Shown here: positions 45,472 through 64,000 of the stretch, piece by piece
How positions within the stretch are numbered: position 1 is the stretch's first letter
Layout of the letters: each line of letters starts with the position of its first letter
Origin: Hahella sp. KA22
GTDB taxonomy: Bacteria > Pseudomonadota > Gammaproteobacteria > Pseudomonadales > Oleiphilaceae
Length of the DNA stretch: 64,000 nucleotides
Assembly (NCBI RefSeq): GCF_004135205.1
Contig: NZ_CP035490.1
Location: 3,055,501-3,119,500, forward strand
Direction: 5' to 3'
Program-made: the position numbers and the translations under genes
Notes under the pieces: generated by a model
Database searches by the model: none
Told to the model about the DNA's origin: nothing
What the model saw: only the letters and a program-made list of their open reading frames with translations

Positions 45472-45500
45472 GCCCTTCGACAAGCTCAGGGCGAACGGGG
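45472..45500 (+). repeat. REP-like element, copy C (plus orientation)
   Basis: GCCCTTCGACAAGCTCAGGG followed by CGAACGGGG. Same motif as copy A at 25709-25737. With copy B it could form a long hairpin in RNA or a BIME-like unit. Confidence 0.75.
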
Positions 45501-45583
45501 TGTGTAGATCAGGGAACTCTCTCTGTTGCGTATCCTCTCAACCCACCGCACTAGGCGGTGGGCGCCAACCACTCCAAAATTCT

Positions 45584-47914: not shown

Positions 47915-47928
47915 AGTGAATCACCGGA

Positions 47929-49191
47929 TCAGTCGAAATAGTAAGTGAATGAAGCGTTGATCAATTGGTCGTCGCGCAGGGGATACAACGGATCGCTGTC
48001 GTCAGGGTCGTAACCGCGCAAAGTCAGTTCCATGGCGATATTGGGAGTCAGACGACGTTTGAAGTTGAGGTGGTAGACCGCCGCACTGTGATTGAGGTCG
48101 GCAATGGCCCCAACGATCAGCGTGCTGTCGTTGTAATCGTTGGAGGCCCAGCGCACGCCGACGAAGAGATCCTGATCGAAAGGCGTCCCCAGCGCGTCAT
48201 CGCCGCGAGAGTCATAGATATACTCGGCGAAGACGCTGAGGTCCGCTTGTTCTTCGGGGCGGATAAAGGTGTATTCCGCTCCCGCCACGGCGGCGAGAAA
48301 ATCCGTCGGCAATGCATAGCGCGAACTGGATTCTTCCGTGTTGTTGTAGGCGAATTCGCCTTTATATAACCAGCTTCCCGCTGTGCCTTGCACCGTAAAA
48401 CCGGTAGTTCTTACTTTGTAATACAGCGGACGCAGATGTCCGGGCTCGGCGCCGGGAACAAATAGCGGGTCCTGGCGATAACCGTCGTAATGAAAGGCGG
48501 CCAGATTCACCTCTCCGGTCACTTTCTCCACTCGCAGTGCGTAACCCAGGCGATGATTGTCCCGATCATCGGTGAACAGGGCGTCGTCTTCGTCGAACTC
48601 CAGTTGTCCGCGGGTGGGATTCTCCCGCGCTTCGCGACTGGGCAGGGTGCGTTCGCGAAACCAGGGCAAAGCGTAAAACTCATACTGCATGGATTCCGCC
48701 TGATAGGCGTAGCGCACGCTGGGAGCGCCGAGTTTGTCCTGGCCCGCCGGATCGCCGGCGATGTCGCGCTGGTTGATCACATCCGCCACCTGCAACGGCA
48801 GTACGTTCACCGCTTCCACGGTGCTCCAGGACACATGACGCAGTCCGATATTGACGATATGGCTGTTGTGGAAATATTCGAAATCCAGTTCCTTGAAGTC
48901 GACGCGGTGACGATTATCGTCAACAAAATCCACGCGACCATAAGGTGTGGCCTTCAGGCTCCAGTTGTGCGGGAGGTAGGTGAACAGCTCCGCAGAGCCC
49001 GCCAGCGCTGCATTGCCGTGATCCTGAATCGGCGCGCCGTTCTGCGGATACCAGTAAATCTCAGGGCTGAGGTAGGCGCTGGTGACGGAGATGTCCGCAG
49101 CGCCGGCGCCGAGGGGCAGGGCGATGGCTAACGCCAGAGTCGCCGCGCCCGCTCGCTGTGACGCAAATCGCAAGTGTGAGTGCCTGGGCAT
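47929..49191 (-). CDS. Outer-membrane beta-barrel protein of the export set
   Basis: About 420 residues from ATG 49191, six bases after AAAGGGA; the in-frame ATG 49197 has no spacing for a ribosome binding site. A signal peptide of ~30 residues ends in GAGA. The protein has alternating aromatic beta strands, and the last residues INASFTYYFD end in the aromatic pattern of outer-membrane barrels. Of the size and type often found next to MMPL exporters (DUF1302-like in layout, not certain). Probably the outer-membrane partner of the RND protein. Confidence 0.7.
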   Translation of the reverse strand: MPRHSHLRFASQRAGAATLALAIALPLGAGAADISVTSAYLSPEIYWYPQNGAPIQDHGNAALAGSAELFTYLPHNWSLKATPYGRVDFVDDNRHRVDFKELDFEYFHNSHIVNIGLRHVSWSTVEAVNVLPLQVADVINQRDIAGDPAGQDKLGAPSVRYAYQAESMQYEFYALPWFRERTLPSREARENPTRGQLEFDEDDALFTDDRDNHRLGYALRVEKVTGEVNLAAFHYDGYRQDPLFVPGAEPGHLRPLYYKVRTTGFTVQGTAGSWLYKGEFAYNNTEESSSRYALPTDFLAAVAGAEYTFIRPEEQADLSVFAEYIYDSRGDDALGTPFDQDLFVGVRWASNDYNDSTLIVGAIADLNHSAAVYHLNFKRRLTPNIAMELTLRGYDPDDSDPLYPLRDDQLINASFTYYFD

Positions 49192-49214
49192 GAGCATCCC
49201 TTTCGCCGCCGGAG

Positions 49215-50069
49215 TTAAAAGCGGCGCAGGGTGTCGTTGCTCACCCGGCTCAGGTTGAAGCTGTTGAACTCGCCGCCGTCAGCGGCGCCAAACACATAGT
49301 CGCTGAGCTGCAAAATGGTTTTCTTCTTGTTCTGCAGGTTCACCATCTCAAAGTGTTTGGGACGCCAGAAGCGGTTCTCGTACTTATTCCATTCGCTCAG
49401 CGTCAGGGTTTTCAGCATGTCGCCCTTGGCGTCGTAAAACTCGATATAACTGGTCTGATAGTTACTCTTGTCCACATGGGTGACCTGCTTGCTGTAACCG
49501 GAATAGCCATACACAGGCGTGCGTTCCACCACCCAGTAATCCGGCGTTTCGCTCAGCAGGTTGTATGTGTACTTGGACAGCTCTGTCGTAGAGATATCTT
49601 CCCAGCTGAACTCCGAACCCACGAAAGAGCCCGACTTGTTCTGGGCGTTGATTTTCTTGGTGCGTTTGATGGTGGGCATGAACAGCCACTGATTGTCCGC
49701 GCCTTCGGACTGTTCAAAGGTAAGCATCACCGTACCTTTGATGTCGTTGGGCTCGACGAAGATGCCGATGGTTTTATCAGGCACCCCGGCTTCCTCCATC
49801 ATTTTTTTGATCACCAGGCGCTTGCTGGTGCGGCCCTGGGCGTCCACCAGAGTCATTTCCATGCGCGCTTCAGTAGATGTCCAGCCCTCGTCAATCAGGT
49901 ATTGGTGGGTGTAAATCTCCAGGCCTTTTTTCTGGGACTCGGACTGATGCCGCGCGGCGATCGGGTCCAGATACCCATTGATGTTTTTCTCGTCGTAATT
50001 GCCCGCCTGAACCGCGCCGGCCGTCAGCGCCGCCGTGAGAAATGCGATGGAAAGTGCTCCTCTTTGCAT
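49215..50069 (-). CDS. LolA-like outer-membrane lipoprotein-sorting family protein
   Basis: 284 residues. Signal peptide ~1-22 (ending VQAG). Family landmarks are LVIKKMMEEAGVPDKTIGIFVEPNDIKGTVMLTFEQ and LFMPTIKRTKKI, FVGSEFSWEDIS and NRFWRPKHFEMVNLQNKKKTIL, which characterise the periplasmic LolA-like group found with MMPL exporters (DUF1329-like group). It probably carries a lipophilic cargo across the periplasm between the RND pump and the outer membrane. It begins 18 bases after the barrel gene's start region and is oriented with it. Confidence 0.75.
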   Translation of the reverse strand: MQRGALSIAFLTAALTAGAVQAGNYDEKNINGYLDPIAARHQSESQKKGLEIYTHQYLIDEGWTSTEARMEMTLVDAQGRTSKRLVIKKMMEEAGVPDKTIGIFVEPNDIKGTVMLTFEQSEGADNQWLFMPTIKRTKKINAQNKSGSFVGSEFSWEDISTTELSKYTYNLLSETPDYWVVERTPVYGYSGYSKQVTHVDKSNYQTSYIEFYDAKGDMLKTLTLSEWNKYENRFWRPKHFEMVNLQNKKKTILQLSDYVFGAADGGEFNSFNLSRVSNDTLRRF

Positions 50070-50118
50070 GATGAATCTCCGCTGATTCCTGTGTGACCGC
50101 CGCCGGTTGTCCCGCGAC

Positions 50119-50733
50119 TCAAGCGTCGTGGGGCCGGGACAGGTGATTGATGACGTATCGGTTGGACACTACGGGTTTGAAATAACGCGCAGCGATCTTT
50201 TTGTGCTCGGGATTGTCGATGAAGCGTTGCAGGTAGTGCTCCGACTTGAAGGTCCAGATGGAAATGAAATCTCCATAACTGACATCGGGCGACACCGCCG
50301 ATAAGGATTCCTCTCCCTGCAGCCGATGAATGGGGCCGCAATCCATGCTCAACAGACCTTCGGACAGGGCGGCGAGGCGATTGAGCGCCTGCTGAAAACT
50401 GTCGATATCCGCGGCGGAGGCGTCGTCCTTGAACTTCACCATGACAATGCGCTTGTAGGCGCCGTTTTCCCGGTGAGCCCGGAACAGCCGGCTGCGCAAC
50501 GAGCGCAATGCGGCGGCGGGGGCGAACTTGCGTTCTTTTTCGGTGGGAGCGGAAGCGTTTTCCGTCGCCTGAATGAGAAACCGCTCGGCGGCTTCGGCGA
50601 ATTCCTCCGCTGTCTGACGCATGAGTCGCCAGAGAAAGCCGTCGTTTTCCGTCCAGGTCGCCGCGCCTTGGGTAAATAACCGGGACAATCCTGTCTCCGT
50701 TCTGAATTTACCCGTCTCTGGTTTGAATCTCAT
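50119..50733 (-). CDS. Dabb-domain protein (dimeric alpha/beta barrel)
   Basis: About 204 residues from ATG 50733, with GGAG six bases upstream; a GTG at 50793 has no such site. The N-terminal ~90 residues are helical and unassigned. The C-terminal ~110 residues form a Dabb/stress-responsive barrel: RIVMVKFKDDASAADIDSFQ, LLSMDCGP, DFISIWTFKSEHYLQRFIDNPEHKKIA. Dabb-fold proteins include olivetolic-acid-cyclase-type enzymes and detoxification proteins. A cyclisation role in the adjacent pathway is a guess. First gene of the minus-strand export set. Confidence 0.6.
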   Translation of the reverse strand: MRFKPETGKFRTETGLSRLFTQGAATWTENDGFLWRLMRQTAEEFAEAAERFLIQATENASAPTEKERKFAPAAALRSLRSRLFRAHRENGAYKRIVMVKFKDDASAADIDSFQQALNRLAALSEGLLSMDCGPIHRLQGEESLSAVSPDVSYGDFISIWTFKSEHYLQRFIDNPEHKKIAARYFKPVVSNRYVINHLSRPHDA

Positions 50734-50957
50734 ACTGGGCTCCACTTCCGAAATGCGCCTGCTGCATTCCTTATCTCTCGTTAATTCAAACACTTAAATA
50801 AAGCGTTCCAACTTTGCTATCGGCCAAATTCTTAATGAGCAGGGCGCCTCTGAGCAACCGTTAATGGTGAGACATTGTGTCCCGATTTTGGTTGTAGCCA
50901 ACGAGAAGGGGAGTCAATTAAGGTTTTTCAAACAGCGAAATCACGGATTGCAGGCTC
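50734..50957. promoter_or_regulatory. Divergent promoter region of the export and biosynthesis genes
   Basis: 224 bases between the minus-strand export genes and the plus-strand biosynthetic genes. It must hold both promoters and is where a shared regulator would bind. No clear palindrome was found by eye. Confidence 0.5.
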
Positions 50958-51674
50958 ATGTTATTCATCGAAGGCGAATACGAAACCATAGAAGACTGGG
51001 TAGCCGATGCGGATACCGGATACTTCAAACGCACCAGGCCGGGCTCGCAACGTCAGGACGCCGCGGTGCTTTCGAAACTGCTGCGTAAACGCAAGGCGTA
51101 CAAACGCTTCCATGCGGACTGCGTCATTCCGGAAACGGATGTGGAGTACATCCTGCAGCAGGCCAGTCTGTCGCCTTCGGCCTTCAACATACAGCATTGG
51201 CGCGTGATTCGGGTGCGGCGCCAGGCGCTCAGAAACGAGATTCTGAAAGCGGCCTGGAATCAAAAGCAGATCAGCGAAGCGGCGGAGATCCTGGTGGTGT
51301 GCGCCGACAAGAAAGCCTGGGCCACTCCCGGCATGCCGTTCTGCCACAGCCGTAATCCCCAGGACCGTGCGGCGTTCGCCAACATGCTGCGTTCCATTTA
51401 CGCAAATAATCCTGCGCTGGAAAGAGATGAGGCCATGCGCTCCGCGAATCTGTTCGCCATGTCGGTGATGTTGATTGCGGAATCGCTGGACTATCAGAGC
51501 TGCCCCATGTCCGGGTTCAACTACAAACGGGTTTCCGAGCTTCTGCATCTGGATGAAGACAGAGTGGAGATCGCCATGATTCTGACCATAGGCAAAGGCG
51601 TCAGCCAGCCGGGGACAGGCAAAAGGCGCATTCCGGCGGCCCGTTTCACCCATGAGGACAAGTACCGGGATTGA
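50958..51674 (+). CDS. Nitroreductase-family FMN oxidoreductase
   Basis: 238 residues. The nitroreductase pattern is seen in RKRKAYKRFHADCVIPETDVEYILQQASLSPSAFNIQHWRVIRV (the first half of the flavin site; motif core SPSAFNIQHWR) and ANLFAMSVMLIAESLDYQSCPMSGFN. Such enzymes use NAD(P)H to reduce nitro groups, quinones or enones. As the first plus-strand gene of the cluster it may supply a reductive tailoring step or remove a reactive quinone. Confidence 0.88.
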   Translation: MLFIEGEYETIEDWVADADTGYFKRTRPGSQRQDAAVLSKLLRKRKAYKRFHADCVIPETDVEYILQQASLSPSAFNIQHWRVIRVRRQALRNEILKAAWNQKQISEAAEILVVCADKKAWATPGMPFCHSRNPQDRAAFANMLRSIYANNPALERDEAMRSANLFAMSVMLIAESLDYQSCPMSGFNYKRVSELLHLDEDRVEIAMILTIGKGVSQPGTGKRRIPAARFTHEDKYRD

Positions 51675-51762
51675 ACGGCGGGCGCAGGGACGCTTCGGCG
51701 GACTCCACTGCGACAACAATTAAAAGCACGCGAAACGAAGACTGTCTTTAGAAGGAGGCACT

Positions 51763-52743
51763 GTGGACACCATATTCATTATGGGCGCAACCGGATTCAT
51801 CGGCGAGGAAACCGCCAGAAGCCATATCGCCAAAGGCAATAAAGTACTGGGACTGGCGCGTAGTGAAGCCAGCGCCGCTAAGTTGAGATCCATCGGCGTC
51901 ACGCCCGTCATGGGCGATGTCTACCGCCCCGAAGAGTGGCTGTCAAAGCTGCCCAAGATCGATTACGCCATCAATGTGCTGGGCTTTTTCACTGACGGCA
52001 TGCCGGCGCGCTTCAGCGTCAGCCACGCGGAAAAGTGCTGCGAGAAATACACCCGCTGGATCAAAGTCACCATCGATCTGGCGCGCAGAAAAGGCATCAA
52101 AGCGGTGGTCAACGTCACCGGCACCACCATCTTCGAAGACATGGGCGTGGACTGGGTGACGGAAGAAACCCCCATTCGCTACACCCCCTCCGGTTTCAAC
52201 CGGGTCGCGACGCCCGCCACCAAGCTGTGCCAGCAGGCGATTGCCGAAGGATTGCCGTTGATCATCGCCGTGGCCCCCAGCGTGGTGTACGGCGACAAGC
52301 CCACGTCCTCTTTTGACGAAGTCTTCGTCAAGCCGCTGGAAAAAGGGCAGATGGGCGTGGTCGGTGACGGTAAGAACTACATCACCACGGGGCATGTGGA
52401 AGATGTCGGCCGCGCCATCGCCCATATCACTGACGTCAAATACGCAGGCGAATTCTTTCACATCGCCGACGACCAGCCGGTCACTCAGCGCGAATTCGTC
52501 ACGTCCATCGCCAGAGCGCTGGGCAAGACGCGGGTGATGACCATGCCGAGATGGCTGGTGGCGATCCTGGGCGGCAAGTGCGCGGTGGAGTTCATGACCT
52601 TATCCCAGCGCATCAGCAACGCCAAATTGAAGAGCACCGGCTTCACCCTGAAACACCCGCGTTTTCTCGATGAAGTCGGCGATGTGGTGCGCAGCATGAG
52701 ACGCGCCCGCGCAGGTCAAAAACTGCAGGCGTCGCCCGCCTGA
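51763..52743 (+). CDS. NAD(P)-dependent epimerase/dehydratase-type extended SDR
   Basis: 326 residues from GTG 51763 with AAGGAGG upstream. Rossmann motif GATGFIGEE near the N terminus. The canonical Tyr-x-x-x-Lys catalytic pair is not evident; FNRVATPATKLCQQAIAEGLPLIIA is the equivalent region, so the enzyme may act as an atypical reductase or dehydratase. VAPSVVYGDKPTSSF and GDGKNYITTGHVEDVGRAIAHI are family features. Possible ketone or enone reduction step. It precedes the crotonase by 28 bases. Confidence 0.8.
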   Translation: MDTIFIMGATGFIGEETARSHIAKGNKVLGLARSEASAAKLRSIGVTPVMGDVYRPEEWLSKLPKIDYAINVLGFFTDGMPARFSVSHAEKCCEKYTRWIKVTIDLARRKGIKAVVNVTGTTIFEDMGVDWVTEETPIRYTPSGFNRVATPATKLCQQAIAEGLPLIIAVAPSVVYGDKPTSSFDEVFVKPLEKGQMGVVGDGKNYITTGHVEDVGRAIAHITDVKYAGEFFHIADDQPVTQREFVTSIARALGKTRVMTMPRWLVAILGGKCAVEFMTLSQRISNAKLKSTGFTLKHPRFLDEVGDVVRSMRRARAGQKLQASPA

Positions 52744-52771
52744 TTCCCGCAACGCCAGCAAGGAGACAAAC

Positions 52772-54172
52772 ATGGATTTTCGCTTTATCAACAATCGCCT
52801 GGATGAGTCCATCGCCATTCTGGAACTGGACGATCCGTCCGCCAACACACTGACTTACGACCTGCTGCATGAACTGGAATACAAGTTCCTGGCGCTGGAG
52901 GCGGACCCGCAGGTGCAGGCGATCATCATCACGGGCAAGGGCGCGCGCTTTTTTTCCGGCGGAGTGAACATCGGCATGCTGCTGACCGCGGGCAAGAAGT
53001 TCAACTCCAACTTCATTCTGTACGCGGCGGAAGTGCTGGAGGCGATCACTCATTCCAGGAAGCTGATCGTCGCCGCCATCAACGGCAACATTACTGGCGG
53101 CGGACTGGAGTTGGCGTTGGTGGCGCACAAGCGTGTGGCGGTGGAAGGCGAGTACAACATCGGTTTCCCTGAAGTGCGCCTGGGCGTTATCCCTGGCATG
53201 GGCGGCACGCAACGTCTGACGCGTCTGGTGGGACCGCAGACCGCGCTGGAAATGATCACCCAGGGGCAGTTCATCAGTGCGGAGCGGGCGAAAGAAATCG
53301 GTCTGGTGGATGAGATTTATCCCCAGGAAGGCTTCCTCAATCGCGCCATCGCGTTCACCCGCGAGCAACTGAACGCACTGAAACCGGCTCCGACGCTCTC
53401 CGGCGAAACCGGCGCAGCGCTGGCGCAGAGCCTGAGCACGCCGTTCCCTGAAGGATTGGCGACCTTGCGCAAAGAGAACGGGCTGGCGGTGATTACGCTG
53501 ACCGAAGCCAGCGCCTCGGCGGATGCGTTCTCCACCTTGCGCGCGCTCAACGAACGGCTGCTGGAGGCCCGCATCGACGAAGACGTATACGCCTTGGCGA
53601 TCGACCTGTCTGCGGGCCTCCTGCGAGCCGACGAGCTGATAGATAACGATGACTTCGTGGTCGAGTACGGACGCAGGGTGTTCTCCCGCATCGACGGCTT
53701 CGCCCGCCTGTGCGTGCTGTATTGCGACCGCGCCATGTCGGAGCTGGAAATGGAGCTGGCGCTGGCTTGCGACTTCCGCTTCTGCGACCAGGCCGGCCTG
53801 AGTGCGGAGGTGGCGCTGCCCACCGGCGAGCTGCCGATTCTGCAGCGCTATCCCAGCCAGCTTCCCGCGGCGCTCGCCGGCAAGCAAGTGACGCTGGCGC
53901 GACTGGTTGAAACCGGCCTGTTCCGCTGCATCGACGAGGAAGAACCCCTGGCCTGGGTGGCGCGTTACATGACCCGGTTTCTGCCTCCCAACGGCGCCAG
54001 CACCGCCATCGGCTACGCCAAGCTGGCCATCAGCAAAGGCTATGCGGAGAGCATTCCCTCAGCGCTGCTGCTGGAGCGCCACCTGCAGGAGCAACTATTC
54101 ATCGGCGCGGACAGTCAGGAAGGCATGAGCGCGTACATCGAAAAACGCACACCCAACTTTAAAGGGGCATAG
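52772..54172 (+). CDS. Tandem crotonase-domain protein, BoxC-like
   Basis: 466 residues. First crotonase domain (~1-260) is complete, with the oxyanion hole at GARFFSGGVNIGML and NGNITGGGLELALVAHKRV, and both catalytic Glu positions (GGGLEL and FPEVRLGVIPGMGG). A second crotonase-like domain follows (~290-460; MSELEMELALACDFRFCD, LPTGELPIL), with looser motifs. Tandem crotonases of this kind include BoxC, the ring-opening dihydrodiol-lyase of aerobic benzoyl-CoA metabolism, but BoxC is longer (~550). The neighbouring BoxB-like oxygenase strengthens the parallel. Here it may open or rearrange an epoxidised aromatic CoA. AAGGAGA precedes the ATG. Confidence 0.8.
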   Translation: MDFRFINNRLDESIAILELDDPSANTLTYDLLHELEYKFLALEADPQVQAIIITGKGARFFSGGVNIGMLLTAGKKFNSNFILYAAEVLEAITHSRKLIVAAINGNITGGGLELALVAHKRVAVEGEYNIGFPEVRLGVIPGMGGTQRLTRLVGPQTALEMITQGQFISAERAKEIGLVDEIYPQEGFLNRAIAFTREQLNALKPAPTLSGETGAALAQSLSTPFPEGLATLRKENGLAVITLTEASASADAFSTLRALNERLLEARIDEDVYALAIDLSAGLLRADELIDNDDFVVEYGRRVFSRIDGFARLCVLYCDRAMSELEMELALACDFRFCDQAGLSAEVALPTGELPILQRYPSQLPAALAGKQVTLARLVETGLFRCIDEEEPLAWVARYMTRFLPPNGASTAIGYAKLAISKGYAESIPSALLLERHLQEQLFIGADSQEGMSAYIEKRTPNFKGA

Positions 54173-54176
54173 GAAA

Positions 54177-55364
54177 ATGGCCGCCATTAACGAATACACC
54201 ATTGACAAGAAGTATCACGACGCGTTGATCGAATGGCAGCGCAAGAACTTCCCGGACATCGGTCTGCTGGAGAAGTATTGGGATGTCTACTTCCCGAATG
54301 ATCCGGCCTGGCGTTTGACCGCCAAACTCTCCGAAGTGAAAGTGGATGTCATCAATCAGGGCAAGTATCAGGGCGTGAAGAAATACGCCACCGCCCGCGA
54401 GATGAAAGGCTCCATGCTGTATCAGGCGCTGCGCATCATCAAGGCCCAGTGCAGCACTGAACTGGGCTCTATCCAGCAGCATATGGACACGGTGAACACC
54501 TGCTACACGGATAAGGCGAAGTTCAGCGTGTTGCGCATCATGGCGGAAGAATTTCGTCACGCCTATCAGATGTTCTGGGTGTTGTCTCACGACCCCAGCT
54601 GGTCCACCACCGGGTCCAGCCGTATTGCGGAAAACACCCTGGACGAGCTGCTGTCCATGAACACCGGCTCCCACGTGTTGGACGCCTTCAACATTCCGTT
54701 CACGGACTCGCTGGATAACGTCACTTTCGCCTGCTTTATCGACCGGGTGGGGCGCTTCCAGCTCACCATGCAGGAAGAGTTCGCCTACGCGCCCATGGCC
54801 GCCAGCATGCGTCCCATGCTGAAAGAAGAAGCCTTCCACCTGAAAACAGGTTGGGAAGTGCTGAAGGAAATCTGCGAAATGGCGGCGGTGGGCGAAGGTC
54901 CCTGGACCCTGGCTGACATCCAGAAAAAGATCAATCTCTGGTATCCCCGCGCGCTGGAGATGTTCGGCAGCGAGGAGGGCGGCGAGTCCAATCTCGAATT
55001 CAGTTTCAAAACCATGTCCAACAAAGAGGCGATTGGCGGCTACATCAAAGAGATCGAGTGGCTGCTCAACTCTCTCAACGCGGCCATCCTGCAGCGTCGA
55101 CACCCTGAACTGAGCAAGGAGCAGGTGCGTCTGATGGCGAAAGAAACCGCGATTCTGAGGCTGCCTTCCACTCGCTTCCTGCGCTTCCGCAGCGGCGAGG
55201 CGATACATGAATCCACTTTCGATGTGGATGGCAATCGCATCAGCCCCTTTGAATACATCAATTACCTGACCCGTGTGCTACCGGAGAAACTGTGTAGCAC
55301 GGAGTACTTCAGAAGCTACACGGACAGGATTCGTCAGGCGCTGCCGACCATGACGGCGGCGTAG
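54177..55364 (+). CDS. Diiron oxygenase of the BoxB/PaaA type
   Basis: 395 residues. Two ferritin-like ExxH motifs are visible: EEFRH (E125, H128) and EEAFH (E218, H221). Further acidic residues at E95 and E200/E201 complete a likely diiron site. The surrounding sequence parallels BoxB (ID-R-G-FQL with a following acidic residue, and MLxEEAxHL), the benzoyl-CoA 2,3-epoxidase. PaaA works in a similar way on phenylacetyl-CoA. It would insert one oxygen into an aromatic acyl-CoA to give an epoxide. No BoxA-type reductase lies nearby, so electrons must come from elsewhere. It starts 4 bases after the crotonase stop. Confidence 0.82.
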   Translation: MAAINEYTIDKKYHDALIEWQRKNFPDIGLLEKYWDVYFPNDPAWRLTAKLSEVKVDVINQGKYQGVKKYATAREMKGSMLYQALRIIKAQCSTELGSIQQHMDTVNTCYTDKAKFSVLRIMAEEFRHAYQMFWVLSHDPSWSTTGSSRIAENTLDELLSMNTGSHVLDAFNIPFTDSLDNVTFACFIDRVGRFQLTMQEEFAYAPMAASMRPMLKEEAFHLKTGWEVLKEICEMAAVGEGPWTLADIQKKINLWYPRALEMFGSEEGGESNLEFSFKTMSNKEAIGGYIKEIEWLLNSLNAAILQRRHPELSKEQVRLMAKETAILRLPSTRFLRFRSGEAIHESTFDVDGNRISPFEYINYLTRVLPEKLCSTEYFRSYTDRIRQALPTMTAA

Positions 55365-55401
55365 ACGAGGACACTGGATAGAAACGGTCACATTAATACG
55401 G

Positions 55402-56934
55402 ATGGATAAAGTTATGTACGACGTTGCAATCATCGGATCAGGATTCGGAGGCGCCGCAAGCGCCATCATGCTGGCGAAACTGGGCCACACTGTGGCGCTG
55501 ATTGAAAAGGGCAAGCACCCGCGTTTCGCTTTGGGCGAATCGACTACGCCCATTATGAGCAAGACGATTCGGCACCTGGGTCAGAAATACGACATTCCCG
55601 AGTTCGTCAATCTGGCCAGTTACGACACCATCATGAACGCGCACATGCCGATCACCTGCGGACCCAAAGAGTTGTTCCACTACTTCTGGCATGAACCTGG
55701 ACTGTCCTCCGCCAAACTGAGCAATGGCGCCGTGCCCGAAATCATCGTGCAGACGCCGGAAGTGGACACCCAGTTGTACCGTGCGGAGAGCGACAAATAT
55801 CTGGTGGACGTGGCGATCAGCTACGGCGCGGATTATTTCGAGGAAACCACCGTTGAAGACATTGAATTCAATGACGACGGCGCGGTGATCAAGTGCTCCC
55901 GTCCAGACGGTAGCGCCAGCGAAATCAAGACCCGATTCATCATCGACGGCACCGGCCATCGTTCGCTGATTTCCCAGCGTTACGACCTGATTGTGCCGCA
56001 GGAAGAGCTGGATACCCCGCTGAAAAGTCGCAGCATTTTCACTCACTTCAAGGATATCGGCGATTTTGAAAGCAGTCTGGAATGCGACGAGGCCTTTATC
56101 GGACGCACCCCGGTTCCGCGTATTCGCGGCACCCAGCACCACTGCTTCGACGGCGGCTGGATCTGGTTCATCCCGTTCGACAACGGCGTCACCAGCGTGG
56201 GACTGAACCTGGATATCGACACCTATCCAATCAATGACAAAACCGGGGAAGAAGAATTCTGGGAGATCATCGGACGTTATCCGATTGTCGAAAAGATGTT
56301 GAAGGGACGCGAAACCTTGATGCCGTTTATCAAGACCAAACGCATTCAGTTTCGCACAAAACAAGCGGTCGGCGATCGTTGGGCCATGTTGCCGGGTTCG
56401 GCGGTAGGAGGTGATGGTTGGTTTAGCACCGGACTCGGCTTTACCTTACTTTGCGCACATCGCATCGTAGACATGCTGCATACCAAGATGCTCAAGGACG
56501 ACGACTTTTCCCGTCAATATCTGGAGAACTACGAAACCGCGCTGTTCAAGGAGTGGAAGTACGTCTGCCGCATGGTGGACGGCATCTACAAGAGCATGCG
56601 CCACTTCGAGGTGTTCAAGTACTACTGCTTCTTCTGCTTCATGGGCGCAGAGAGCTTCGTGCACCGCGGCGGCATCAAACGTCCGCACGATCTCAACTAC
56701 CTGCTGCTCAACGTCGGCGACGACAACTTTGTCGCCAAGTTCGAAGAGTTCTACACCATGGTGAAAGACCTGCACGAACGCGATGAAGTGACCCAGGAAC
56801 AGCTCGACTACCTGCGCGATTTCGTGCGCTTCGAAATGAAAGACTACAACTACCGGGATTACGGCAACCCCATATACGGCGGCGTGCACCGCCGGTTGGA
56901 CAAGTCATCCAGATTTTTCGCGGAACTGGCCTGA
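55402..56934 (+). CDS. FAD-dependent oxidoreductase of the flavin-halogenase family
   Basis: 510 residues. N-terminal FAD site IIGSGFGGAASAI. The GEST motif (ALGESTTPIMS, residues ~44-53) and the diagnostic halogenase WxWxIP motif (W253, W255, I257, P258) are both present, as in tryptophan- and phenol/pyrrole-type flavin halogenases. The second FAD element is IIDGTGHRSLI. Whether it halogenates a free ring or carrier-bound aromatic, or acts as an ordinary hydroxylase, cannot be told from sequence. The catalytic Lys expected in halogenases is not securely aligned. It reads in series with the BoxB-like gene. Confidence 0.82.
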   Translation: MDKVMYDVAIIGSGFGGAASAIMLAKLGHTVALIEKGKHPRFALGESTTPIMSKTIRHLGQKYDIPEFVNLASYDTIMNAHMPITCGPKELFHYFWHEPGLSSAKLSNGAVPEIIVQTPEVDTQLYRAESDKYLVDVAISYGADYFEETTVEDIEFNDDGAVIKCSRPDGSASEIKTRFIIDGTGHRSLISQRYDLIVPQEELDTPLKSRSIFTHFKDIGDFESSLECDEAFIGRTPVPRIRGTQHHCFDGGWIWFIPFDNGVTSVGLNLDIDTYPINDKTGEEEFWEIIGRYPIVEKMLKGRETLMPFIKTKRIQFRTKQAVGDRWAMLPGSAVGGDGWFSTGLGFTLLCAHRIVDMLHTKMLKDDDFSRQYLENYETALFKEWKYVCRMVDGIYKSMRHFEVFKYYCFFCFMGAESFVHRGGIKRPHDLNYLLLNVGDDNFVAKFEEFYTMVKDLHERDEVTQEQLDYLRDFVRFEMKDYNYRDYGNPIYGGVHRRLDKSSRFFAELA

Positions 56935-56965
56935 TCAACTGAGAAACGACCACGGAGAGGACAAC

Positions 56966-59900
56966 ATGGTTGCGAGTAATCTTGATCCTATAAGCGTTGA
57001 TGTCGTCGTAGTGGGCGGAGGCATCGCGGGGTGCTGGACGGCGCTGAAGCTGTTGCGCAAGGGCATCCCCACCGCCATCGCCTTCTACAGTGATAGCGAT
57101 CGGGGCGGCAAGCTGGGCGCTTCCGCCTTGTCAGTGGGCGCCATCAACACCTCTCCGTTGACGCGGGGGGATTATCTGGAATGGTTGACTGACCTGGGGC
57201 GCGGACAAGAGCACTCCGACGTCGGCGCCATCACCAGAAATCACCTGGCGTCGGAACTGGACGCGCTGCTGGAGTTCGACGCGCTCAAGAACATCCAACT
57301 GGGTGTGGCGCTGAAATCCGGTTCCGGTCGTCATCTGTTGGCGCGGCTGCTGCAGGAAATCCGTTATCTGGGCGGCGTCGTTTTAGACAACGCCTGGGTG
57401 ACCCGCATCGTCGCCGACGCCAAGCGCTGTCATGGCGTGCAGTATCAAAGCGGCGATCAGATCGGCGCGGTGTACGCTGGCGCGGTGGTGCTTGCTTCTG
57501 GCGGCTACTCAGGCCTGTTCCATGGTTCGGTGAAAACCGGCACTTACGGGTCCGTGCACGGTCGTCATCTCGCCGCCGGCGGCTGGTTGAGCAATCTGGA
57601 ATTCGTATTCAAACATGGGTACGGGCAACCAGATCTGGGCACTCTGACGCCGACGGAAGAACTGCCCGGCGCGGAAATCTATGACGAAAACGGCGAACAC
57701 GTAGACTGGCTGGAGCAGGAGCTGTTCTACGGACGCGGCACCAGCAACCACTTCCAGGCGTTCATGACCTGGCGTAAAGGCGGCGACCTTAAATACTACG
57801 TGGACTTCCGCTATCGCGAACTGCACCGCAGCGTCAAACGCATCGCGATAGTCGGTTCCGACGATATCGAAGACATCTGCGCGGACAAAGAAGCATTGAT
57901 CGCCGGTCTGGTGGAGCGCTGCCCGGAAGCCAATCAAGAAGCTTTGAGAGAGATTCTTGCAGCGGTGAACCAGCACGAACGGGAATACAACTTTGAGACG
58001 TTCAGCGAGATCAAGGCGCTGGTCGCGGACGCCTATCCGGTGGATCGCAGCCGTATCCGTCAGATCTCCTATTTCTCCATGGGCGGCGTGGCTCACCACA
58101 AATTCAAAACCAACCTGAAGAACGTATTCGTGTGCGGCGAAGCCATGCACGATTACGGCGCTCATCGGGTGGGAGGGTTGCCGTGGGCGCTGTATCTCTG
58201 CGCCGCCAAAGTGATTTCAGAAAAGATCGATTTGCTCAAGCGGCAGGGACATTTGCTGTCCACGCCGTTCGAGCTGGATGACAAAGCGTCCGCCTATGAC
58301 AAGAAGTTGGTGGCGGAGTTGCAGCAGGGATTGCAGCGCTATCAGGAAAGCGGCGTGGATGTTGAAGGCGCGGCAGCCTTCGCCGACTGGATTCGGGATC
58401 AACGACGCACGCTGACGGCGCAACACCGGGAACTGGATGACGTGGTGGCCTATCTGCTGGTGGGCGAGGCCATTATGCGCTCCTCCCTGGCCCGGCAGGA
58501 AAGCCGCGGCTGTTTCTTCCGGGACGATTTCGGGGATGAAAATCCCGCCCTGAGCTCACAACGGACGCTGACCCGCTATGACTCAGAATCCGATGAAGTA
58601 CACGCGGAGCTGATCAGCGCCGAACAACTCTCCGCAATGATAGACAGAGGGCGATTAGCGATGGACGACAAATCTTTGATAAGCAGCGCGGCCACAAAAA
58701 ACGCGGCTTACTTTCTGTTGAAAAAGCATGTTGAAACCGGACTTGGCGGCAAAGCGGCGGTGGAGACGCTGGACGTTTCATACACTTACGACGAACTGTG
58801 GAGCCTGACCAGTCGATACGCCGGTTTCCTGAAAGCCAGCCGTATCGACGAGGGCGACCGCGTGGCGCTGCTGCTGAACGATCGTCCCGAATATCTGGCG
58901 ATGTTCCTGGCGACGCAGCAAATCGGCGCTATTGCGATCCCGCTCAATACCTTCTCGAAAGAGCAGGAATTGACCCATTATCTGGAGGATTCCGGGGCCA
59001 AGCTGCTGATCACCGAGGCGGAACTGGTGGCTCGTTACTCCGTAGAGCAGATCAACGAGCAGACTCATGTGGAAGTGGTCAGCTATGAAGATATTCCTAC
59101 CGCGCGCATGGAGCCGGTGGAGGATATCCTGCCGGTGAGCGATGAAACCATCGGCTTCATTCTCTACACCTCCGGCAGCACCGGCAAACCCAAAGGCGCG
59201 ATTCATCGCCAGGTGAGCATGGGCTTCAGCGCGGAGAACTTTGCGCGCAAAACCCTGAAGATCAACGACCGCGACCGTATTTTCTCTTCCTCCAAGTTGT
59301 TCTTCGCCTATGGACTGGGGAACTCGCTGTACTTCCCATTGTACTTCGGCGCCACCGCGCTGTTGTGCAGCACCAAGGCGGCGCCGGAAGTAATTCGCGA
59401 TATTTTGGGACAACTCAAGCCGACGGTGTTCTTTGCTGTGCCGGCGGTGTATCGGGGCATCCTGGAGGGCGGTGGCGCAACGGAAGACAATTTCCGCTCC
59501 GTACGCTTGTGCGTCAGCGCCGGCGAAGCGCTGCCGATCAAGCTGGCGCAACAGTGGTGCGCCGCCACCGGTGTGGAAGTGCTGGATGGCATCGGCAGCA
59601 CTGAGGCGTTGCATATCTTCTGCGTTTCCAACCATTCCTCCGCCAAGGAGAGCTATTACGGCCGCGCCGTGCCTGGCTATGAACTGTGCGTGTGCGATGA
59701 GAACGGCAAAGTCCTGACGGAAAACGCCATCGGCGAGCTGCGGGTGAAAGGGCCCACCCTGGCGCAGGGCTATTGGAACAATCCGGCCAAAACGGCGGAA
59801 ACCTTCTACGACGGATCGCTGTTGACCGGCGACCGCTACTTCGCCAACGACAAAGGCGAATATGTGTTTGTCGGCAGACATGGCGACACCTACAAATCGT

Positions 59901-60265
59901 CCGGCCTGTGGGTCTCCACTCTGGAGATCGAAGCAGTGCTCGGCGAGCTGGCGGCGGTGGCGGAGTCTTCCGTGGTGGTGTTTCAGGGCAACGACGGGCT
60001 GTTGAAATCCAAAGCCTATGTGGTGGCCCGGGAAGCGGAAAGCTTCGAGGACAAACAGCGGGTGGAGACGGATACGCACCGCTTCCTGCGTGAACGTCTG
60101 CCCAAATACAAAACCCCTCATTGCGTGGAGGCGCTGGACGAACTGCCCCGCACCGCCACCGGCAAAATCGCCAAGGCGATCCTGCGGGATATGGCTCAGG
60201 AAGTCATCTGGGCCAGACCTGTGAGAGAAAGCGCTCCAGAACGGGAGCTGAACATGGCGCAGTAG
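56966..60265 (+). CDS. Fused FAD dehydrogenase (aspartate-oxidase-like) and benzoate-CoA-ligase-like protein
   Basis: 1099 residues. N-terminal half (~1-560) is a fumarate-reductase/L-aspartate-oxidase-type flavoprotein: VVVVGGGIAGCWTALKL, SGGYSGLFHG, FSMGGVAHHKFKTNLKNVFVCGEAMHDYGAHRVGGL (the core GEAMHDYGAHRVGG). The C-terminal half (~590-1099) is an ANL-superfamily acyl-CoA ligase of the benzoate-CoA-ligase group: ATP loop LYTSGSTGKPKGA (~733), IGSTEALHIF and the hinge/Lys region TGKIAKAIL near the end. An internal ATG at 58661 with a modest GAGGG site marks the likely ancestral ligase start. The fusion is not one I know. It would couple ring activation by CoA with an oxidation step. Starts after CGGAGAGGA. 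Confidence 0.85.
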   Translation: MVASNLDPISVDVVVVGGGIAGCWTALKLLRKGIPTAIAFYSDSDRGGKLGASALSVGAINTSPLTRGDYLEWLTDLGRGQEHSDVGAITRNHLASELDALLEFDALKNIQLGVALKSGSGRHLLARLLQEIRYLGGVVLDNAWVTRIVADAKRCHGVQYQSGDQIGAVYAGAVVLASGGYSGLFHGSVKTGTYGSVHGRHLAAGGWLSNLEFVFKHGYGQPDLGTLTPTEELPGAEIYDENGEHVDWLEQELFYGRGTSNHFQAFMTWRKGGDLKYYVDFRYRELHRSVKRIAIVGSDDIEDICADKEALIAGLVERCPEANQEALREILAAVNQHEREYNFETFSEIKALVADAYPVDRSRIRQISYFSMGGVAHHKFKTNLKNVFVCGEAMHDYGAHRVGGLPWALYLCAAKVISEKIDLLKRQGHLLSTPFELDDKASAYDKKLVAELQQGLQRYQESGVDVEGAAAFADWIRDQRRTLTAQHRELDDVVAYLLVGEAIMRSSLARQESRGCFFRDDFGDENPALSSQRTLTRYDSESDEVHAELISAEQLSAMIDRGRLAMDDKSLISSAATKNAAYFLLKKHVETGLGGKAAVETLDVSYTYDELWSLTSRYAGFLKASRIDEGDRVALLLNDRPEYLAMFLATQQIGAIAIPLNTFSKEQELTHYLEDSGAKLLITEAELVARYSVEQINEQTHVEVVSYEDIPTARMEPVEDILPVSDETIGFILYTSGSTGKPKGAIHRQVSMGFSAENFARKTLKINDRDRIFSSSKLFFAYGLGNSLYFPLYFGATALLCSTKAAPEVIRDILGQLKPTVFFAVPAVYRGILEGGGATEDNFRSVRLCVSAGEALPIKLAQQWCAATGVEVLDGIGSTEALHIFCVSNHSSAKESYYGRAVPGYELCVCDENGKVLTENAIGELRVKGPTLAQGYWNNPAKTAETFYDGSLLTGDRYFANDKGEYVFVGRHGDTYKSSGLWVSTLEIEAVLGELAAVAESSVVVFQGNDGLLKSKAYVVAREAESFEDKQRVETDTHRFLRERLPKYKTPHCVEALDELPRTATGKIAKAILRDMAQEVIWARPVRESAPERELNMAQ

Positions 60266-60324
60266 CGCCGCACTCTAAACGCCGGCGTTGGGATGGGCCC
60301 GGCGCGGCGGACTAATAAAAAAAC

Positions 60325-60372
60325 TTCCCCCAAAGAAACTGATTCCGCCTGCGGGCGGAGGAGGTGGGGGGC
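60325..60372. other. GC-rich hairpin between ligase and methyltransferase genes
   Basis: An outer CCCCC/GGGGG pair encloses TCCGCC tgcg GGCGGA. Found in the 138-base gap before the methyltransferase. On the minus strand it would be followed by a run of T. No minus-strand gene ends here. Could modulate downstream translation. Confidence 0.35.
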
Positions 60373-60403
60373 TCTAAACAATACTCTTACGGAGAGAAGT
60401 AGA

Positions 60404-61171
60404 ATGAGCTTCAGTAACCCAAAGTACTATTCAAACACGGCCACACTTTACAGCGCGGCTTTGGATGAGGGTGACTACCACGATTGGAAAGACTCCATCA
60501 TTACAGGCCTGATGGGATTCATCACCCCGTTCCCGGAGAAAATGCGCATCAACCGCGCGTTTGTCCGGCAGATGTACGAGGGCTACCAGCAGGAAGGCTT
60601 CAACAATATTCTGGATATCGGCGCGGGCCCGATCCCCAGAGGTCATGAGTGGGCCACCGAAGCCAATATCATGTATGTCGATCACAACCCGGATATCGTT
60701 GAGCACGCCCGTAGAAAACTGCCCGCCGGCGCCAGCGCAAGATACGAAACCTCCAGCGTCGGCGCGTTGCCAGGGCTGCTGGAAAAAGGTCTGGTGGACG
60801 GCTTCTTCGACGACTCCAGAAAAGTGGCCTTCGGTTCCAACGCCGTGTTGATGTTCGTGGACGACGCGGAGATCAAAAGCACCTTCCAGTACCTGTACGA
60901 GTGGTGCGCGCCAGGCTCAGTACTCAAGATCAGCACCACCGGCATCACCGGATCGGAGAGCGACCTGCGCGCCAAGTTCATTCGCACCTTCTTCAAGAAG
61001 GTGAATGCGCCCATGCACGTTCGCAACGTGGATAAGTTCTGCGAACTGTTTGCGCCCTGGAAAGTCACGCGTCGTCCCATGCCCTTGTGGGAGTGGGTGA
61101 ACTGGCCGCCTTCCAAAATGACGGCGGGCATCGGTTTCGATATCTACGGTATTGAACTGCGTAAAGAGTGA
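60404..61171 (+). CDS. SAM-dependent methyltransferase
   Basis: 255 residues from ATG 60404, with GGAGAGAAG upstream; a start at 60293 would give an unrelated tail and is rejected. SAM motif I is NILDIGAGPIPRGHEWA (core DIGAGPIP), and the acidic ribose-binding position is MYVDHNPDIVEHAR, a pattern of the PF04672-type methyltransferase family. C-terminal LWEWVNWPPSKMT is typical as well. Likely O-, N- or C-methylation of the pathway product. Confidence 0.85.
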   Translation: MSFSNPKYYSNTATLYSAALDEGDYHDWKDSIITGLMGFITPFPEKMRINRAFVRQMYEGYQQEGFNNILDIGAGPIPRGHEWATEANIMYVDHNPDIVEHARRKLPAGASARYETSSVGALPGLLEKGLVDGFFDDSRKVAFGSNAVLMFVDDAEIKSTFQYLYEWCAPGSVLKISTTGITGSESDLRAKFIRTFFKKVNAPMHVRNVDKFCELFAPWKVTRRPMPLWEWVNWPPSKMTAGIGFDIYGIELRKE

Positions 61172-61242
61172 TTCGCGTCAGGCATGCCGGGCGGTTCGCC
61201 CGCTCTTCCCATGGATCGCGGTTAACGCACGAGGAATAAGAT

Positions 61243-62289
61243 ATGGATAACATACACAAGGACATCCCTTTCGGGAGTCCGGTTCAGGTGGGGCAGGGCG
61301 TTTTCCTGCTGAAAATGCCGCTGCCGTTTCGCCTGGATCATATCAACCTGTATCTGATCGATGATCAGGACGGGTGGATTCTGGTCGATACTGGCCTGAA
61401 TCATCGCGCTGTGCGTGAAACATGGGAAGAGTTGGCGGATACGGTCTTCCAGCAAAAGCCGATCAAGAAGATCCTGATCACCCATCTGCATCCGGATCAT
61501 ATTGGTCAGGCGGCCTGGCTGCAGCGTCGCTTCAAGGCGGACGCCTACATTTCCGAAGGGGACTGGCTGATGGCGCAGCGGCTGTGGTTTTCCCCCGCGG
61601 AAAGCGCGATTCCCCGCTACGCCGCGCACTATCGGGCGTTTGGCGTGGACGGGGAACGCTTCGAACAACTGATCGAAAACCGCGGCAACTATCAGCGTCT
61701 GGTGAAGGAACTGCCTTTACAGGTCAAGTTCCTGCGCACCGGCGATATCATCAGCGCCGCCAGCGGCGACTGGCGTGTCGTCTGCGGCAGCGGTCATTCT
61801 CCAGAGCACCTGTGTCTGTGGAACGAGGCCAGCCGTGAGATGATCACTGGCGACCATGTGTTGCCGAAAATCACCCCGAATATCGGCATCATTGTGGGCG
61901 GTCTGTCTAACCCACTTGAGAACTACCTGTTGTCCCTGGAGGATTTTCTGGCGATTGATTGCGCCAGATATTTTCCTGCTCACGGGTTGCCCTCAGAGAA
62001 CTACCATGAGCGCATCGCCGAGATCAAAATGCATCACCATCGGCAGTTGCAAAAACTCCTGAGCGGTTGCGGCGAACCGACCACTGTTTATGAAGCCGTA
62101 GGCATGTTGTTCAACACGGAGCTGCCGCCTCACCAGTATATGTTCGCGCTGGGAGAAACCGCCGCGCACCTGCGTTATCTTGAAAGCATCGGTTTGATGC
62201 ATCGCGAGGGTGAGAAAACCTGGTCTTTCAAATCCATCTCCCAAGCGGACCAGCAGAGGGAGGAAACCGCCTGCGCGTCTTCGGTGTAA
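61243..62289 (+). CDS. MBL-fold metallo-hydrolase
   Basis: 348 residues. Metallo-beta-lactamase metal motif HLHPDHIGQ (His-x-His-x-Asp-His) plus GSGHSPEHLCLWNE (His) and ITGDHVLP (Asp). The final His region is YFPAHGLPSEN. A C-terminal ~70-residue winged-helix-like extension is present as in LACTB2-type proteins. Possible thioester or lactone hydrolysis releasing the product from CoA; it may also be an RNA-type hydrolase. GAGGAA lies before the ATG. Confidence 0.88.
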   Translation: MDNIHKDIPFGSPVQVGQGVFLLKMPLPFRLDHINLYLIDDQDGWILVDTGLNHRAVRETWEELADTVFQQKPIKKILITHLHPDHIGQAAWLQRRFKADAYISEGDWLMAQRLWFSPAESAIPRYAAHYRAFGVDGERFEQLIENRGNYQRLVKELPLQVKFLRTGDIISAASGDWRVVCGSGHSPEHLCLWNEASREMITGDHVLPKITPNIGIIVGGLSNPLENYLLSLEDFLAIDCARYFPAHGLPSENYHERIAEIKMHHHRQLQKLLSGCGEPTTVYEAVGMLFNTELPPHQYMFALGETAAHLRYLESIGLMHREGEKTWSFKSISQADQQREETACASSV

Positions 62290-62293
62290 GGCC

Positions 62294-63331
62294 ATGACGG
62301 AGAGGAGCGGCGGGGTGTTCAAGATCAGGAAAGTCCTGGTGTCTGGCGCAACGGGATTCGCCGGGAGCCATATTCTGGAAGCGTTGAGCAGAGTGCCAGG
62401 AATCCGGCCTATCGCCGCCTGCCGTCATCCCGGCGCGCTGCCTGTAGAAGTATGCTGCGAAGTGCGCGAGGGCGATTTGCGCGACGCCAATTACATCAAG
62501 GATGTGTGCCGCGGCGTGGATGTGGTGATTCACGCTGCGGCCTGGACGTCTCTATACGGGCATCGCGAAAGTTCGCAACGCCTGTATTTTCAACCGACCT
62601 TGGGATTGATCGAGGCGGCGCGGCAGGCGGGGGTGAAAGTCTTCATTAACACCAGCACCGCTTCCGCCGCCGCGCCGGAGCGTTCCTCCGACCCCTATAG
62701 TCCAGGCGTCGAGCCTCCTTATTGGCCGCATCTGTGCAATCTGGTGCGCATCGAAAATATCCTGCGCGGATACGCCCGCGATTGGTTCAAGGTCATTAAC
62801 CTGCGCATGGGAATTTATGTTGGGCGACGCTATCGCGTAGGTTTTCTGCCGATACTGCTGCCGCGCCTGAAAACACGACTGATTCCCTGGATTCGCGGCG
62901 GTAAAACCAGCCTGCCTCTGATCGACGGTCGCGATATCGGTCAGGCGTTTTCCCTGGCTGCGCAATGGACGCCGGGAGAAAATTTCGCCGCCTTCAATAT
63001 TGTCGGTTCGGGCCCACCGAGTGTGCGTGAGGTGATCGAATACATCGCCGACCGGCATCAGATTCCCAAACCCTGTTACAGCGTGCCGTTTCCCGTCGCC
63101 TATGGCGTGGGCGAACTGATGGAGCTGATTGATCCGTTAATGCCTTTTGATCCCCTGGTCACGCGCAGTCTGATCCACTTGCTGGAGGAGACCGGCGCCG
63201 ACAACAGCCGCGCCACCGCTGTGTTGGGTTATCAGCCACAGATCGACTGGCGACGCTCCATTGACGAACAAATTGAAGAAATATGCCGCCAGAATACCCT
63301 GGCGCCTATGCATAATTTGTTAGAGACCTGA
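62294..63331 (+). CDS. NAD-dependent epimerase/dehydratase (second SDR)
   Basis: 345 residues from ATG 62294; an in-frame GTG at 62315, spaced seven bases after GAGGAG, may be the true start. Rossmann motif SGATGFAGSHILEA. The catalytic YxxxK is not evident; the aligned region HLCNLVRIEN lacks both. Substrate clues: RIEN, GENFAAFNIVGSG. Likely reduces or dehydrates the pathway intermediate, or uses it in sugar-like modification. Confidence 0.8.
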   Translation: MTERSGGVFKIRKVLVSGATGFAGSHILEALSRVPGIRPIAACRHPGALPVEVCCEVREGDLRDANYIKDVCRGVDVVIHAAAWTSLYGHRESSQRLYFQPTLGLIEAARQAGVKVFINTSTASAAAPERSSDPYSPGVEPPYWPHLCNLVRIENILRGYARDWFKVINLRMGIYVGRRYRVGFLPILLPRLKTRLIPWIRGGKTSLPLIDGRDIGQAFSLAAQWTPGENFAAFNIVGSGPPSVREVIEYIADRHQIPKPCYSVPFPVAYGVGELMELIDPLMPFDPLVTRSLIHLLEETGADNSRATAVLGYQPQIDWRRSIDEQIEEICRQNTLAPMHNLLET

Positions 63332-63400
63332 GAGTCTGTTTAAATTGCGGACTTTATTGGTACGTTCTGCGCAGCCTGCGCCGCGCCGTGGATATGGGAA

Positions 63401-63751
63401 ATGGATCGCATAATGGAATCTCTTTTGTCCTTCATCAACAATTCTGTCTTATCGCTGGTCTATAGTGTTCTGGATCTGCCTCGCGAAATCACCGCTCGCA
63501 ATGTTGCGGAGCGCCATCAGCGCAACTTGAGCGCGCTGGAAGCAGCGCTGAAGGAAGGTGGTCAAGCCAGTTCGACCATTATTTCCGATGGCGTGCGCAG
63601 GCAGGCGGTTCTTGACTATGATGGGGAATTCAGGGCGACCCTCACGGGGGAAGAAAAGGAGTCGACAACGATGGGGTTTCAAACCATCGACGCGCTGGAT
63701 GAATACTTAACAAACTCAACGCCTTTCAGGGCGCGTGACTTTATTGCGTAA
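63401..63751 (+). CDS. Hypothetical protein, cluster member
   Basis: 116 residues; ATG 63401 or 63413. The N-terminal segment (MESLLSFINNSVLSLVYSVLD) is hydrophobic and could be membrane-associated. Then mixed charged sequence (RHQRNLSALEAALKEGG, SDGVRRQAVLDYDGEFRATLTGEEKE). No domain recognised. It follows the second SDR by about 70 bases in the same direction, so likely transcribed with the cluster. Confidence 0.55.
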   Translation: MDRIMESLLSFINNSVLSLVYSVLDLPREITARNVAERHQRNLSALEAALKEGGQASSTIISDGVRRQAVLDYDGEFRATLTGEEKESTTMGFQTIDALDEYLTNSTPFRARDFIA

Positions 63752-63789
63752 CACCATGCTTAAAATAAAAAAGACGGAAAGGATTCATT

Positions 63790-64000
63790 ATGAATAAAGA
63801 CATCTGGTTGATTTATCACAAATCCTCACTCAGCCCCCGTTCGTCCATCAATATGGACGGCTCCGATTACATGGTGGGCGTCAGCGCTGTTCCCGCCAGA
63901 GAAATGATGGAAGCGATTGAGCTGTTCAAAGAGCATCTGCGGGAAGACTACATGGCCCCCATGGAGTTGTGGAAGTGCGTGAAATGGGGCTCCGGCGATT
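63790..64000 (+). CDS. Hypothetical protein, 5' end only (partial)
   Basis: Start ATG 63790 with AAAGGATT upstream. It begins MNKDIWLIYHKSSLSPRSS and continues IELFKEHLREDYMAPMEL; the window ends inside the gene. No family recognised from 70 residues. Spaced 38 bases from the previous gene and on the same strand, so the cluster or operon may extend past the edge. Confidence 0.55.
   Translation, partial: MNKDIWLIYHKSSLSPRSSINMDGSDYMVGVSAVPAREMMEAIELFKEHLREDYMAPMELWKCVKWGSGD

Follow-up and report, generated by a model that had tools for sequence, protein, structure and literature searches.

A flavin-dependent halogenase-like protein of a distinct clade beside a BoxB-like gene in a conserved Hahella cluster

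In the window (the whole analysed stretch of DNA, 64,000 nucleotides of a Hahella genome) a gene at 55402-56934 encodes a flavoprotein which, according to its sequence and modelled structure, belongs to the CtcP/PltM/PrnC halogenases and is placed among them in a distinct sister clade. We consider it probable (about 0.7) that this protein is a two-component FADH2-dependent halogenase, taking part in a cluster for the biosynthesis of an aromatic compound through aryl-CoA esters and for its export. Most likely it adds a new branch to an already known family of halogenases, within a conserved and uncharacterised cluster.

The gene cluster and its BoxB-like oxygenase

The following genes were assigned to the cluster:

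45584-47914, minus strand: MMPL/HAE3-type RND exporter (Pfam MMPL over the cut-off, HAE3 model below its cut-off)
47929-49197, minus strand: putative outer-membrane component of the exporter (our own label; it has no Pfam family and is syntenic in the Marinagarivorans MAG, L020)
49215-50069, minus strand: LolA-like/DUF1329 protein
50119-50793, minus strand: Dabb-domain protein, which opens the divergent set
50958-51674, plus strand: nitroreductase-family protein
51763-52743, plus strand: extended SDR of the epimerase family (75% identity to its counterpart in the Marinagarivorans MAG)
52772-54172, plus strand: crotonase (enoyl-CoA hydratase family) of 466 aa, in which about 200 aa are inserted ahead of the C-terminal part
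54177-55364, plus strand: BoxB-like diiron oxygenase, 395 aa (TIGR03225 54 bits; BoxB 3per 2.6e-12 by profile)
55402-56934, plus strand: flavin-dependent halogenase-like protein of the CtcP/PltM/PrnC group (GEST 45-48, K89, F92, D122, WIWFIP 253-258, DGWFSTG 338-344)
56966-60265, plus strand: fusion of FAD_binding_2 and a benzoate-CoA ligase-family domain, 1099 aa (TIGR02262; 2v7b 3.5e-86)
60293-61171, plus strand: SAM methyltransferase (PF04672; 66% identical in L020)
61243-62289, plus strand: metallo-beta-lactamase-fold hydrolase
62210-63331, plus strand: 3-beta-HSD/OleD-like SDR (shared with three other Hahella genomes, unmatched in L020)

In the run of genes that opens with the first SDR and closes with the hydrolase, the gaps are 4 to 71 bases. 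The halogenase-like reading frame begins with ATG and codes for 510 amino acids with no internal stop. The ligase domain of the fusion protein scored 396.7 bits with TIGR02262, over the curated cut-off of 375.25; the FAD_binding_2 domain is weakly similar to L-aspartate oxidase/fumarate reductase and gave no match at 1e-5 when searched alone against the PDB. The hydrolase may act as a thioesterase, and the listed frame of the last SDR overlaps it, the true start of that SDR being probably further in. Residues 12-201 and 406-465 of the crotonase align with the 265-aa hydratase 2ppy, with about 200 residues between them, part of which looks crotonase-like by eye; the homologue in the Marinagarivorans MAG is about as long (468 aa). 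Among the genes of the Hahella cluster none of the flavin reductase family was seen, and two PF01613 genes are located elsewhere in the genome (6,960,771 bases). Scanning for promoters and terminators returned 0 promoter-like sites against 5.8 expected, and 16 terminator-like sites against 14.3 expected.

An earlier note on this DNA had placed the flavoenzyme next to an aromatic-CoA oxygenase. The adjoining gene is indeed BoxB-like and carries the iron ligands, all six of which (E95, E125, H128, D189, E218, H221) were found by sequence alignment; its relationship to BoxB is distant, however, with 54 bits for the protein and 51.2 in the genome search against the curated TIGR03225 cut-off of 499.1 bits. 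The AlphaFold model of this protein, built from three sequences, was of low confidence (pLDDT 41.0, pTM 0.23). Since BoxB residues are kept and the ligase domain lies over the benzoate-CoA ligase cut-off, an aryl-CoA is the likely substrate of the BoxB-like enzyme. The halogenase-like protein beside it does not have to work on the CoA-bound form. Searching the genome itself revealed neither a further boxB match nor a boxA match over the cut-off, which argues against ordinary benzoate catabolism; four weak boxA matches were obtained, of a kind also present in 13 of 14 control genomes, and a divergent partner reductase is possible. At E <= 1e-20 the BoxB-like protein is rare: it was detected in four of 97 relatives, all of them Hahella, and solely in its own genome among 390 genomes of the order and 369 of the class. 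No relative was found in viral contigs.

Diagnostic residues and family placement

GEST and WxWxIP, the motif pair on which the earlier note had based its suggestion, are both in place, and a GxGxxG motif (GSGFGG, residues 12-17) was read from the translation. The catalytic Lys had been left insecure; alignment located it at K89, which aligns with K87 of PltM (counted residue 107 of the PltM chain, after a 20-residue tag), K98 of CtcP and K97 of PrnC. The K87A mutant of PltM is inactive (PMC6424973), and K98 is the catalytic Lys of CtcP (PMC12400496). K89 is kept in all 11 close sequences, and Lys occupies the position in 18 of the 20 rows of a wider alignment; the two exceptions are PltA and an aryl-polyene-cluster flavoprotein of Pseudoalteromonas (L040), whose own Lys was not aligned by the method used. 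The latter was discarded as a Lys-less control, because a Lys stands nearby in the alignment and it proves nothing. F92 aligns with F90 of PltM, which stacks on the substrate, and with F101 of CtcP. D122 aligns with E129 of PrnC, one of three residues proposed as key (PMC10770391). The WxWxI motif is conserved in 11 of the 11 close sequences (its final Pro in 10), likewise the T343-G344 pair; in other enzymes the backbone NH groups of the Thr-Gly site bind halide (PMC7336383).

The tight FxxPxxSxG motif is changed: the protein has GGDGWFSTG there, with the Ser and Gly kept and the Phe and Pro lost. These two residues are missing in all 11 sequences of the clade, while the motif is intact in CtcP, PltM and PltA, and D(G/A)WF(S/A)TG stands where the sister clade has FIDPLFSRG. 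Since the published motif is looser, with any number of residues between its letters (PMC7336383), and since Bmp5 is a phenol brominase lacking both conventional motifs (PMC12871659, preprint), this loss weakens family membership but does not exclude it. The position of PltM E49 and PrnC E60 is Ile, Leu, Val or Ala in all ten clade rows and Gln in CtcP, and a six-residue insertion after WxWxIPF(N/D)N, present in the sister clade, is absent in the query clade and in PltA. We read the changes in the motif, the insertion and the Glu position as signs of an altered tunnel and substrate pocket, which is the main reason why certainty on halogenation is held back.

Comparison of the query with the PDB by phmmer yielded CtcP (1.8e-61) and PltM (2e-47), far beyond chance. 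When the profile of 11 sequences was used, 13 of the 14 best PDB sequences were halogenases (CtcP and PltM twice each, PltA, ChlB4, Mpy16, CmlS, CndH, FasV, Bmp2 twice, RadH), the remaining one, 3nix, being an uncharacterised flavoprotein; the next match, a FixC, had 36 bits against 253 for CtcP. The AlphaFold model of the halogenase-like protein (pLDDT 84.8, pTM 0.88) was compared with known structures: the nine best entries were CtcP or PltM, with Z scores of 40.4-41.2 over 472-477 residues, followed by PltA and ChlB4 (30.9), and the monooxygenases/hydroxylases and tryptophan halogenases stood at about 25. Foldseek gave the same order at the top. The predicted structure has a PltM-like fold including the C-terminal helical region, within a model range of up to 497-500. 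The motifs, K89, the PDB ranking and the predicted fold together bear out membership in the FAD-halogenase superfamily, and the clustering with non-halogenating hydroxylases that the earlier note had allowed for was seen neither in the sequence ranking nor in the fold (Z 41 against about 25). Identity as a tryptophan halogenase was rejected, PrnA and RebH having Z of about 25.

In the phylogenetic tree the query clade (ten rows) was separated from CtcP, PltM, the Azotobacter PrnC-like protein and five others. With two outgroup rows (20 rows) the split had supports of 99/98 and 96/99; the long branches of the outgroups met the query clade in this tree, hence it was rebuilt with 18 rows and without outgroups, giving 100/100. 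Both trees were made without L017 and L026, near-copies of other rows. The query clade stands on a long stem branch.

Conservation and genomic settings

Homologues of the halogenase-like protein were detected at E <= 1e-20 in 6 of 146 relatives, its own genome included (four of the seven Hahella and two others); in one Hahella genome (G005) the gene is located at contig position 193463. At E <= 1e-40 the only one of the 369 class genomes was its own. The cluster recurs in three other Hahella genomes (four of seven with its own), where the exporter runs off the fetched stretch. The Marinagarivorans MAG exhibits the same gene order at 36-75% identity, without the last SDR, and in a third lineage (L019) the contig opens with the last part of the BoxB-like gene, after which come the halogenase-like gene, the fusion and the hydrolase; a match to the methyltransferase was not seen at that locus. 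In 16 comparisons (eight genes against two genomes) dN/dS was 0.010-0.107; the cluster is conserved and under purifying selection. No close DNA copy of 45500-64000 was present in plasmid records. In the three Hahella genomes that lack the halogenase-like gene, a search at 1e-100, which had no positive control, did not find the fusion protein.

The settings of clade members were compared at 10 loci. Three of these (L017, L019, L020) are the box-like cluster, and two (L018, L021) lie on one Cellvibrionaceae MAG contig, JANQJP010000042.1. The other five (L022-L026: Rhodanobacter twice, Dyella and the gammaproteobacterial records 45_16_T64 and DC_out160) represent one recurring set, in which the halogenase-like gene is accompanied by a flavin reductase, a haem-oxygenase-like protein (PF14518) and an acyl-CoA/AMP ligase; the families were checked in one or two loci each and assigned by homology in the others. 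The flavin reductase homologue adjoins the halogenase-like gene in all five (Pfam-checked in two). In the same set the haem-oxygenase-like protein is weakly CADD/BesC-like, and a beta-propeller protein has a weak cytochrome c match. At L021:2287-9925 (gammaproteobacterium) type II polyketide-like genes were observed: two of the ketosynthase family, Polyketide_cyc and a PF04199 Cyclase.

A more distant relative on a Chroococcidiopsis plasmid is located near a benzoate-CoA ligase and a salicylate synthase, so the pairing of ligase and halogenase is not unique to Hahella. The interpretation of the earlier note is upheld in part: a benzoate-CoA ligase domain and a protein with the BoxB iron ligands do adjoin the gene, halogenation and a CoA-thioester substrate are putative, and a CoA-ligase neighbour occurs elsewhere. 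In the sister clade, the Azotobacter PrnC-like copy (27.7% identity over 96% of the query) has PrnB-like, Rieske and tryptophan-halogenase genes around it, a set that we take for pyrrolnitrin genes; the published PrnC numbering (PMC10770391) agrees with its K97, E60 and E129. At another locus (L008, genome G023) homologues of the RND exporter and the LolA-like protein (34% and 40% identity) are placed a few kb away from a CtcP/PltM-type halogenase gene.

Among the open-licence papers listed on benzoyl-CoA, BoxB, halogenases and Hahella, none described this cluster in its title or the start of its abstract. One paper shows Hahella with a different halogenase set, bp608-610 (PMC10579414), another had no bearing on the cluster (PMC5577590), and a genome-mining paper on Hahella lists a PBDE cluster, its main text having no word that begins with 'halogen' (PMC9030710).

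Proposed function and comparison with known enzymes

By analogy with PltM and CtcP, FADH2 supplied by a separate flavin reductase would react with O2 to form a flavin peroxide, which would oxidise a halide held near T343-G344; the resulting HOX would be passed to K89, and an electron-rich aromatic ring near F92 would be halogenated. Chlorination or bromination of an aromatic ring is the likely reaction predicted from sequence and model. The cluster seems to make and export an aromatic compound via coenzyme-A intermediates. The ring would probably be built through CoA esters: the ligase domain would activate an aromatic acid, the BoxB-like enzyme would oxidise the ring, and the crotonase, SDR, nitroreductase and fumarate-reductase-like domain might convert it to a phenol, which could then be halogenated, methylated, released from its thioester and exported by the RND system, in this presumed order and towards this presumed product.

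The halogenase reading is supported by K89, F92, WxWxI, the PDB ranking, the fold and the flavin reductase of the five recurring loci, and also by the member beside type II polyketide genes (L021), as CtcP serves a type II polyketide. The presumed pyrrolnitrin setting of the Azotobacter relative, the synteny of the cluster and its low dN/dS count in its favour too. The loss of the Phe and Pro of FxxPxxSxG, the loss at the E49/E60 position and the fact that no flavin reductase was seen in the cluster count against it. The same losses, shared by the whole clade on its long stem, together with the many oxidoreductases of the cluster, would suit a former halogenase that now oxygenates the same kind of aromatic intermediate as a flavin-dependent monooxygenase would, and uses its Lys otherwise. 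We regard this as unlikely, since WxWxI, proposed to prevent monooxygenation (PMC12871659, preprint), is kept throughout the clade together with K89 and T343-G344, hydroxylases are structurally much more distant, and Bmp5 halogenates in spite of its missing motifs. Box-type benzoate catabolism with a misplaced flavoprotein has in its favour a benzoate-CoA ligase domain, a BoxB-like protein and a crotonase side by side; it was nevertheless rejected as highly improbable, the genome search giving no further boxB match and no boxA over the cut-off, the BoxB-like protein scoring far below the BoxB cut-off, and the methyltransferase and RND exporter being conserved with the cluster.

A version of the preferred halogenase reading, not exclusive of it, is an active enzyme whose substrate is a free phenol, the ligase and BoxB-like genes belonging to another step. 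It has somewhat less than an even chance: PltM acts on free phenols, seven of the ten clade loci have no BoxB-like gene in the fetched flanks, and such a gene was present in one (Marinagarivorans) of five searched whole genomes of clade members, whereas in all three cluster-holding lineages the gene is flanked by the BoxB-like gene on one side and the ligase fusion on the other, the L019 contig starting inside the BoxB-like gene. A bolder proposal, which we find rather doubtful, is that the clade with its rebuilt halide tunnel might halogenate an aryl-CoA or its BoxB-type epoxide/oxepin directly. The box pathway would then be reused for biosynthesis, and the metabolite made would be ring-oxidised, halogenated, methylated and exported.

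To our knowledge, benzoyl-CoA epoxidase chemistry is known only from aromatic breakdown; if the halogenase reading is true, this chemistry would be joined to the making of a halogenated natural product. Homologues with a changed tunnel motif and a kept catalytic Lys would then offer a direct test of the role of FxxPxxSxG. The cluster is also a sign that Hahella and its relatives export a product which is so far uncharacterised.

Among the named halogenases CtcP (tetracycline 7-halogenase; PDB 7xgb, 7v0b) is the best match of the query by both sequence and structure (Z 41.2, 28% identity). It retains FIDPLFSRG and has an extra C-terminal lid of residues 517-555 (PMC12400496), while the query ends at residue 510. 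Chlorination of tetracycline by CtcP itself was absent in one study and weak in another (PMC12400496), consequently the substrate is not readable from homology. PltM (phenol halogenase, PDB 6bza; Z 40.4-41.1) has, like CtcP and unlike PltA, the C-terminal helical region of the query; its E49, able to hydrogen-bond the substrate hydroxyl, aligns with I51, as does E60 of PrnC (monodechloroaminopyrrolnitrin halogenase), and its L111 with T118 where the alignment is loose. The neighbouring protein (395 aa) is shorter than the benzoyl-CoA 2,3-epoxidase BoxB (3per, 481 aa). The six iron ligands of BoxB (E120, E150, H153, D211, E240, H243) and its second-shell residues Q116, T119, S123, F193 and F206 (PMC5489048) are identical in it, and F203 and T210, also named in that paper, align with N181 and I188.
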